A stretch of 64,000 nucleotides of DNA. Source: Acidobacteriota bacterium (lineage in GTDB: Bacteria; Acidobacteriota; Blastocatellia; UBA7656). The number at the start of each line of letters is the position of its first letter. Positions within the stretch are counted from its first letter, which is position 1. The notes below the pieces were generated by a model. That model did no database searches and was not told the origin of the DNA. It saw only the letters and a list, made by a program, of their open reading frames with translations. The translations under genes were made by a program, and so were the position numbers. Of this stretch, positions 203-8,972 are shown one piece after another. The stretch is taken from assembly GCA_040754075.1 (NCBI GenBank), contig JBFMDH010000003.1, positions 326,307 to 390,306 on the forward strand. Direction: 5' to 3'.

Positions 203-346
203 CGCGTCTGCGCCCTGACCCGCAAGGCTTACATACTGGTAAAAACCAATCTCCAAAATTGGTCATGTAGGTTCGATTCCTATCCTGCCCCGCCAAATTT
301 ATGGGGCAGCTTAAAAAGCACAGCCTTTCAAACTTGCGCGGACGCG
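203..346 (+). ncRNA. YrlA-like Y RNA, unit 2 (complete, Trp-tRNA-like insert)
   Basis: The ends pair: 203-208 with 341-346, 221-226 with 333-338, and 224-229 with 322-327 as an alternative inner helix. Inside are a perfect 5-bp anticodon-like arm (246-250/258-262) with loop CTCCAAA, which would read as a Trp CCA anticodon with T33, a T-arm (267-283) with loop TTCGATT, and an acceptor 3' strand CTGCCCC (285-291) followed by G and CCA. The matching 5' strand GGGGCAG (303-309) lies downstream, so the tRNA-like domain is circularly permuted and its acceptor stem is closed by an 11-nt loop. The outer helix would be the Ro60-binding stem by analogy with Y RNAs. Covariance searching with the YrlA model would settle the class. 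Confidence 0.7.
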
Positions 347-440: not shown

Positions 441-450
441 CGTCATTTTT

Positions 451-576
451 GCCGCGCCCCAACCGGTAGGGCATACATACCCCACCAAAACAACCAACGA
501 GGTGCGTGTAAAGGGAAACATGCTGCAAGCCTGAGACCTGATAGCAGGCAACAAACTGCCCTTTCAACTTGCGCGG
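451..576 (+). ncRNA. Y RNA-like unit 3 (same scaffold, no tRNA-like domain)
   Basis: It shares the array's outer sequences: a start related to unit 2 (GCGCCC, then GGC-WTACATAC) and the end CTTTCAACTTGCGCGG. The ends pair as CCGCGC (452-457) with GCGCGG (571-576), then GGGCA (469-473) with TGCCC (557-561). The interior differs from the other units: it has no T-loop or acceptor repeat and instead contains a hairpin GCCTG/CAGGC (529-533/545-549). It may be a Y RNA without the tRNA module or a diverged copy. Whether it is transcribed cannot be judged from sequence. Confidence 0.5.
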
Positions 577-582
577 TAAGTA

Positions 583-1223: not shown

Positions 1224-4281
<3,058 letters not shown>

Positions 4282-7727: not shown

Positions 7728-8972
7728 ATGGATAGAGAGATTGATCGCGGTTTTCGCAACCGGCAACTCATCAAACGGCTGTTGATTTTGCTGTTCGTCA
7801 TTTCGTTTGTTGTCGCGGGATTCGTTTACGCGCCACGGTTGATGAAAGCGTCCATCAACCGTTCGCGCATTCGTACTGCTCGCGTCGAGGCGGGTGCAAT
7901 CGAAGCAACCATCAGCGCGTCCGGAACCGTGGTGCCGGAATTCGAGCAGGTCATCTCCAGTCCGATCAATGCGCAGGTGAAAAAGATTTTGAAACGCGCC
8001 GGTGACGGTGTCCGCAAAGGCGAGCCGATTCTTGAACTCGATGTCAACGAATCGGTGCTGGCGGTTGAAAAAATCAATCAGCAAATGGCTTTGAAACAGA
8101 ATCAACAGGCGAAAATCAAACTCGATTTACAGACCGCGCTTGCCGATTTGCAAAGTCGCTGGGAAATCAAAAATCTCGAATACAAATCCGCCCGCGCTGC
8201 AACCGCGCGCAATCGCAATCTCGCAAAACAAGGATTGCTTTCCGAAGAGAAATTGCGCGAAGCTGAACTTCAAGAAGAAAAAGCCGCATTTGAACTCAAA
8301 CAACTCGAACAATCAAAACTGAATGCCGAACAATCAACCCGCACGCAAATCGAAGGTTTGGTTCTGGAAATGCAGACCCTTGAAAAAGAGCGTAACGAAG
8401 CGGCGCGACAACTCGAACTTGCGACCACCAAAGCCGACCGCGACGGGGTCTTGACCTGGGTCGTTACCGAAGAAGGCGCGATAATTCAGAAAGGCGCAGT
8501 CATTGCGCGCATTGCTGACCTCAATTCGTTTCAGGTCAACGCGACTTACTCGGATATTCACGCCGGAAACATTACGGCGGGAATGCCTGCGAGCATCAAA
8601 ATAAACGACGATTATTTGCAGGGCACCGTCGCAAGCATTCTGCCGACCGTAAAAGACGGCACCATCACCGCCGCTATCACTTTGAAAGACAAATCCAGCG
8701 CCCTATTAAAAGCCAATCTGCGCGTCGATGTGTTGATTGTGACAGATAAAAAAGACCGCGTGTTGCGGATTAAAAAAGGTCCCGCGATTACCGCAGATGG
8801 GGTGCGCGAGTTGTTCATAGTTCGCGGCGATGTGGCAGTGAAAACCCCGGTTAAATTCGGCATCGCCAGTTTCGATAATTGTGAAATCGTCGAAGGACTC
8901 TATGAAGGCGATGAGGTCATCATTTCCGACATGGGCGAGTACCAGCATTTGCAAGAGATCAAGCTGAAATAG
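7728..8972 (+). CDS. HlyD/RND-type periplasmic adaptor of an ABC exporter
   Basis: 414 aa from ATG 7728; an upstream TTG at 7695 would add 11 residues, and neither has a strong ribosome binding site. One N-terminal membrane anchor (about 16-36) is followed by a barrel-sandwich half, a long alpha hairpin rich in Gln, Lys and Glu (about residues 100-230, coiled coil), the second lipoyl half with V-L-T-W-V-V-T-E-E-G-A, and beta-barrel and membrane-proximal domains. Adaptors of this kind join an inner-membrane MacB-like transporter to an outer-membrane TolC-like channel. The ATPase and two permease genes follow on the same strand. No TolC gene is present in the window. Confidence 0.87.
   Translation: MDREIDRGFRNRQLIKRLLILLFVISFVVAGFVYAPRLMKASINRSRIRTARVEAGAIEATISASGTVVPEFEQVISSPINAQVKKILKRAGDGVRKGEPILELDVNESVLAVEKINQQMALKQNQQAKIKLDLQTALADLQSRWEIKNLEYKSARAATARNRNLAKQGLLSEEKLREAELQEEKAAFELKQLEQSKLNAEQSTRTQIEGLVLEMQTLEKERNEAARQLELATTKADRDGVLTWVVTEEGAIIQKGAVIARIADLNSFQVNATYSDIHAGNITAGMPASIKINDDYLQGTVASILPTVKDGTITAAITLKDKSSALLKANLRVDVLIVTDKKDRVLRIKKGPAITADGVRELFIVRGDVAVKTPVKFGIASFDNCEIVEGLYEGDEVIISDMGEYQHLQEIKLK

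Follow-up and report, generated by a model that had tools for sequence, protein, structure and literature searches.

The tRNA-like Y RNA YrlA, described here from reviews and from its Rfam model (RF02553), has a terminal stem, carries its tRNA-like elements in the permuted order T arm, acceptor, D arm, and is encoded beside a Ro60 orthologue. In Deinococcus and Salmonella, Y RNAs bind Ro60 by their stems, other proteins being contacted by the outer domain (PMC8394870, PMC7790460). The Deinococcus Y RNA tethers the Ro60 protein Rsr to PNPase (PMC7790460), and in Salmonella, according to a review, YrlA is a substrate of the modifying enzymes DusA and TruB (PMC8394870). Hughes et al. have suggested YrlA as a possible competitive inhibitor of an anticodon nuclease, and Salmonella YrlA is not cut by a nuclease that cuts tRNA-Trp (PMC7790460). 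Both the Deinococcus assembly of Ro60/Rsr, Y RNA and PNPase and the Salmonella rsr-yrlBA-rtcBA operon (PMC7790460) associate a Ro60-like protein with adjoining Y RNAs in a context of RNA repair or stress. In Anabaena PCC 7120, antibiotics that target translation switch on a reserve trn array, which promotes survival; TrcR represses this array and, in addition, the genes of RtcB and of an HNH protein (PMC10272220). Finally, the permuted tRNA genes of algae and archaea encode the 3' half before the 5' half (PMC3978253, PMC3218864), and permuted tmRNA (RF04321) possesses a T arm, an acceptor and CCA with the 5' strand downstream.

We analyzed a stretch of 64,000 nucleotides, hereafter the window, from an acidobacterial genome of 7.6 Mb termed G000 (G000:C3:326307-390306); L-numbers designate fetched loci. 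Seven Y RNA units, A to G, lie between a 28-tRNA array and a Ro60-like gene, rsr. Most of them are outside the window, which begins inside the fifth (E) and continues with the sixth (F), the subject of this analysis, and the seventh (G). Each of the seven units has a 5' box (GCGCCC..GCTTACATAC, slightly varied from one unit to another) and a 3' box (AACTTGCGCG). The latter pattern has three further matches in the genome outside the array, and the two examined both lack the 5' box. The features are as follows.

L031:8492-12391, upstream of the window: array of 28 tRNA genes including tRNA-Trp(CCA)
Upstream of the window: HNH gene
L031:13169-13369, upstream of the window: conserved protein of 66 aa
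Unit A: permuted tRNA
Unit B: permuted, with a Phe-type loop CTGAAAA, A73 and CCA
Unit C: permuted tRNA, loop CTTATAA
Unit D: short unit
1-110, + strand: unit E, a Leu-like mimic of a class II tRNA with the opening in the D loop; its 5' end precedes the window
203-346, + strand: unit F Y RNA (fold z -4.5; boxes common to the seven units; full-length match to covariance model R1, 66 bits)
203-213/336-346, + strand: lower stem of unit F, Ro60-type, 11 bp (RNA folding)
224-229/322-327, + strand: upper stem of unit F (RNA folding)
227-236, + strand: 5' box GCTTACATAC of unit F, conserved in all units
245-263, + strand: anticodon arm ACCAAT-CTCCAAA-ATTGGT of unit F (direct reading and fold; enrichment and covariation among relatives)
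251-257, + strand: anticodon loop CTCCAAA, anticodon CCA
267-283, + strand: T arm GTAGG-TTCGATT-CCTAT, loop TTCGATT (direct reading and fold)
285-309, + strand: acceptor hairpin, 7 bp (direct reading and fold)
285-291, + strand: acceptor 3' strand CTGCCCC
292, + strand: G73
293-295, + strand: CCA
Up to 302, + strand: loop capping the acceptor, starting with G-CCA
303-309, + strand: acceptor 5' strand GGGGCAG
309-319, + strand: mini hairpin GCTTAAAAAGC, where the D arm would stand (direct reading and fold)
331-340, + strand: 3' box AACTTGCGCG of unit F, common to the seven units
449-580, + strand: unit G, same scaffold without a T arm
741-1223, + strand: conserved neighbour protein (HQAHL...GGYHET), encoded at 40 of the 89 rsr loci, without a Pfam family
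1345-4281, + strand: Ro60-like gene rsr, about 1 kb downstream of unit F, interrupted by an intein
2404-3753: intein with a LAGLIDADG domain, inside rsr, exactly in the vWA metal-site motif, between DK and SGSM

Folding of positions 201-346 gave a minimum free energy of -49.3 kcal/mol (z = -4.5; 0 of 200 shuffles as good) and returned the anticodon arm, the T arm, the acceptor, the Y stem and the mini hairpin. A first-pass annotation had described this unit as a mimic of tRNA-Trp, and its reading of the individual parts agrees with ours: the CTCCAAA loop stands on a perfect stem, which comprises 6 bp and not only 5, the T loop is TTCGATT, the acceptor 3' strand is followed by G-CCA, and the acceptor 5' strand lies downstream of it. 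A complete cloverleaf is not found, as there is no proper D arm but only GCTTAAAAAGC and a D-loop-like TGGTA upstream, and neither ARAGORN nor Rfam at gathering thresholds gave a match in the window. As regards structural identity, unit F is in all likelihood a bacterial Y RNA, in which a Ro60-type stem closes a permuted tRNA-like domain.

Unit F nevertheless differs from YrlA by its full anticodon arm and CCA, by a different scaffold sequence and by the lack of a proper D arm. Among the permuted elements, it displays the T arm and the acceptor, whereas unit C and many relatives display all three. Against RF02553, unit C matches over positions 24-84 with 36.2 of 69 bits, which is below gathering, and unit F does not match. 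The first-pass annotation considered a full anticodon arm to go beyond what is expected of a Y RNA, and such an arm is indeed absent from the YrlA model and apparently also from six YrlA units of the class. Compared with the algal and archaeal permuted tRNAs, unit F shows no sign of joining and has a Ro60-type end stem, and ordinary tRNA-Trp genes are present. Unit B reaches 28.7 bits against permuted tmRNA, under the cut-off of 47; no tag reading frame was identified and an anticodon arm is present, and the likeness is limited to the tRNA-like part. With respect to Deinococcus and Salmonella, the locus stands apart by its seven Y RNAs with different modules and by the reserve tRNA array next door; unlike in the Salmonella operon, no rtcBA was seen in the stretch read. 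The array resembles that of Anabaena in having about 26-28 tRNAs with an HNH gene nearby, but it is contiguous with the Y RNAs and rsr. What appears to be new is a tRNA-mimicking Y RNA with a full anticodon arm, tRNA mimicry of the YrlA type being already known. Among the reports listed by full-text literature searches, none describes anticodon-bearing or rRNA-bearing Y RNAs, although primary Y RNA papers may mention them.

The TROVE Pfam model PF05731 has no match in G000, and PF25045 remains below its cut-off. A PDB profile search with alignment A1 gave nothing useful. The relative from G001 has an rsr without intein. The AlphaFold model of an intein-less relative, L094, is of moderate confidence (pLDDT 64, shallow alignment), and its five best PDB matches are all Ro60, with E-values from 2.9e-8 (1yvp) to 1.2e-6 and including 9nfa, 9nf8 and 9l5y. 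For this relative, vWA_Ro60 scores 25 of 27.7 bits, which is sub-threshold, and the motif DKSGSM is present. Judged on this modelled relative, the rsr product appears to adopt a Ro60 fold with a vWA domain. Unit F probably binds this Ro60-like ring protein.

The Rsr extein was found in 11 of the 162 genomes of the class, G000 included, as well as in many filamentous cyanobacteria (about 68-75% identity), a few other bacteria and five viral contigs. The high identity across phyla and the patchy presence suggest horizontal spread. These viral contigs (L174-L178) carry rsr, and in L174 it is preceded upstream by tRNAs and Y-like units with the anticodon arms CTGAATA, CTATTAA and CTTCCAA. Besides G000, the scaffold is found in ten genomes of the class, in phage contigs and in about 80 loci, most of them cyanobacterial. 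From the Y arrays of the class loci and of about 80 further loci, 285 inserts were gathered by pattern and sorted automatically into four bins: permuted or probably permuted (80), unpermuted (88), other inserts with a T arm (11) and inserts lacking one (106). Since a few H69-71 units accidentally fell into the permuted bin, the statistics were computed on 62 cleaner permuted units (acceptor 7/7, insert <135 nt).

A covariance model of the permuted units (R1) was searched against the 162 class genomes. Low-scoring matches occur in nearly every genome and are largely tandem tRNA pairs (model positions 35-117), so that only full-length matches of at least 70 bits were counted; among the full-length matches listed, these occur only with this rsr. 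Weaker full-length matches occur in several other places, at a distance of about 1 kb from canonical TROVE genes (among them G016:C9, G008:C21, G015:C78, G047:C19 and G033:C105). These TROVE-adjacent units match the YrlA model RF02553 over its full length, one of them above the gathering score, and the six canonical ones inspected by eye appear to lack the anticodon arm. The class therefore holds both the known YrlA type and the anticodon-arm variant.

A perfect 5-bp stem with a YUNNNR loop is present in 14 of the 62 permuted units, against 0.3 expected (maximum 3 in 1000 shuffles), and in 7 of the 12 permuted units from Acidobacteria alone, where about 0 would be expected (maximum 1). The 62 units contain 40 distinct fully paired acceptor stems. 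In an alignment of 20 rows, 98.4% of the cells pair and 17 of 31 pairs change on both sides, including 4 of the 5 pairs of the anticodon stem. The rows were picked for having the hairpin, which biases the pairing percentage of that helix, but row selection by itself does not fully explain the compensatory changes in the anticodon stem. The lower stem is 100% paired with compensatory changes in the relatives' alignment (A5). Moreover, the 28-nt head of unit B, Phe loop included, is identical to that of a relative from another genus, while T stem and acceptor differ. In about 17 of the 62 units, the hairpin preceding the T arm ends in a GNRA tetraloop. Not every unit thus requires an anticodon loop: the arm is common, not universal. 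T loops in which TGC replaces TTC were observed in several cyanobacterial mimics (L095:8317, L098:7248, L101:4536).

The identification with tRNA-Trp, on the other hand, holds only in part. The loop, G73 and CCA are Trp-like, and ARAGORN calls tRNA-Trp(cca) when unit F is re-joined in tRNA order, a permissive test that 27 of the 62 units still pass when their D part is shuffled. A relationship of the body to tRNA-Trp was ruled out, its best alignments being to tRNA-Lys, -Met and -Arg. Two standard tRNA-Trp genes were found, one in the array and one elsewhere in the genome. Nor is the CTCCAAA triplet kept in homologues: the F-type relatives of cyanobacteria have loops such as CTTAAAA, CTAAAAA or a tetraloop, and the triplets across units include A34 forms and stop-reading anticodons, both unlike working bacterial tRNAs. 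As the triplet varies and the loop shape is constant, it is the fold of the loop that is kept across paralogues and not codon identity.

The same scaffold carries other modules, which also separate the sister units from YrlA. In unpermuted tRNA units, the acceptor stem continues into the Y stem (L084, L088:13805, L091:3093, L107:8179 and most cyanobacterial loci). ARAGORN and Rfam annotate some of them as tRNA genes, probably wrongly, which calls for caution. A further group, one unit in each of 12 loci, displays the exact 23S sarcin-ricin core AGTACGAGAGG directly after the 5' box. All 12 also hold a GTPase-centre segment matching 23S 1059-1088 by blastn, with local scores between 36 and 64, where 200 shuffles of each reached maxima of 23-28. 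One comes from an Acidobacterium (L086) and the rest from other, mostly cyanobacterial, loci; in G000, whose rRNA is incompletely assembled, the single copy of the core is in the 23S gene. Finally, 15 units contain the 23S H69-H71 sequence (around 1909-1941), and several of them have the matching GCGGCCGTAA strand at the opposite end, so that the opening falls within the H69 loop. In 23S, GCGA is followed by the H70 segment, which these units do not keep, so not every known cut site is retained. Sarcin-ricin and GTPase-centre elements as well as H69-H71 are sites contacted by known ribotoxins or translation factors. Examples are:

L086 (- strand, 9811), L096:2429, L159:12801, L169:13815: units with sarcin-ricin core and GTPase-centre segment
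L098:7462, L099:6065, L107:7913, L159:8216: units with H69-H71

We propose, with a probability of roughly 0.45, that unit F belongs to a set of Y RNAs that display mimics of translation RNAs on Ro60 as decoys or lures, beside a reserve tRNA array. The end stem of unit F would bind the Ro60-like protein encoded 1 kb downstream, and the outer domain is a tRNA opened on the side of its D arm and sealed at the acceptor, an arrangement that presents anticodon arm, T arm and acceptor but does not allow charging. Under translation stress, the Ro60 RNP could act as a decoy or lure for enzymes cutting or processing tRNA anticodon arms and, in relatives, ribosomal active sites. Real tRNAs and ribosomes would be spared in this way, and the array would supply replacement tRNAs. 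Ro60 binding, expression and decoy action are predictions from sequence, and the decoy mechanism itself is put forward tentatively.

Direct observations of sequence, structure, covariation and synteny speak for this proposal: the fold and scaffold of unit F, the association of the high-scoring listed R1 matches with this rsr, anticodon arms far above shuffles with compensatory changes in their stem, a loop shape kept while the triplet varies to A34 and stop-reading forms, and the presence of sarcin-ricin plus GTPase-centre or H69-H71 modules on the same scaffold. To these can be added the predicted Ro60 fold of the neighbour's relative, the adjoining array, comparable to one induced by antibiotics in Anabaena (PMC10272220), and the earlier suggestion that YrlA inhibits an anticodon nuclease (PMC7790460). 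However, the resistance of Salmonella YrlA to cleavage fits an inhibitor and not a cleaved substrate (PMC7790460), and the GNRA hairpins and the missing H70 segment also sit uneasily with a decoy.

Another hypothesis, for which we see a reasonable but lesser than even chance, is that the tRNA-like domain brings a tRNA-handling enzyme to Ro60, be it PNPase, a modification enzyme or a repair enzyme such as RtcB, and that Ro60 then steers the decay or repair of damaged tRNA and rRNA. The Deinococcus Y RNA offers a precedent with PNPase (PMC7790460) and Salmonella YrlA another as a substrate of DusA and TruB (PMC8394870), and KptA is found near rsr in 8 loci. Unit F may recruit tRNA-modifying enzymes, as was also raised in the first-pass annotation. 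Yet a single partner binding the elbow needs neither varied anticodon arms nor sarcin-ricin/GTPase-centre or H69-71 modules.

One would also wonder whether the mimics could titrate EF-Tu, EF-G, synthetases or RelA and slow protein synthesis under stress. The joining of sarcin-ricin loop and GTPase centre in one unit and the L7/L12-like gene in 18 rsr loci would suit such a function. We regard it as unlikely, as mimics with a closed acceptor cannot be aminoacylated and should bind EF-Tu poorly. Still less probable is that the units have no function and are decaying remnants of array tRNAs trapped in Y RNA genes: the array does adjoin them and parts of units A and E resemble its tRNAs by alignment, but the strong covariation, the fully paired acceptors, the loop shape conserved across phyla and the identical head of unit B and its relative from another genus argue against decay. 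As for a working permuted tRNA-Trp, raised in the first-pass annotation, whose transcript would be cut and joined into a functional tRNA, the Trp-like loop, G73 and CCA and the ARAGORN call are set against the closed acceptor, the ends held in a Ro60-type stem, two ordinary tRNA-Trp genes, a body that is not Trp-like, an unconserved triplet and the missing D arm, and it is very unlikely.

If the decoy proposal is considered on a broader scale, a single Y RNA scaffold might display an exchangeable panel of decoys against RNA-targeting toxins: tRNAs of two topologies bearing anticodon arms, the sarcin-ricin loop with the GTPase centre, and H69-H71. Along with reserve tRNA arrays, this system would have spread between Acidobacteria, cyanobacteria and phages. 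We consider this generalization less likely than not; if confirmed, the wider panel would be more novel than the single unit. Mimicry extends past the known elbow of T arm, D arm and acceptor to anticodon arms and, in the sister units, to the factor-binding site of the ribosome and to H69-H71. That Ro60 RNPs present a panel of decoys or lures for the translation apparatus' attackers and handlers is a concrete, testable proposal for the role of bacterial Ro60 and of the tRNA mimicry of Y RNAs. The reserve arrays adjoining the mimics are of the kind that responds to translation stress in Anabaena.

Several minor observations concern the surroundings of the units. By eye, unit G was a plausible 16S mimic (GCAAGCCTGA); blastn against E. 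coli rRNA gave no match. The motif TGCAAGCCTGAG...AGCAGGC is conserved in this type of unit (window 449-580, second unit of L089, L099:7051, L100:4845). The spacers between units (about 110-200, 355-450 and 585-735) are imperfect inverted repeats, for example AGGTGAA...TTCACCT, and could form long hairpins. The small protein MVHVRFEGRS...RPEAVYG (L031:13169-13369; L174:9415-9622), without Pfam match, is encoded in a phage contig and at 61 of the 89 rsr loci; as ThiF/E1-like genes occur in 32 rsr loci, it might be ubiquitin-like. Lastly, the ribosomal L7/L12-like gene near rsr (for example L115:8933-9334 and L107, about 8356-8745) deserves attention given the GTPase-centre RNA mimics nearby.
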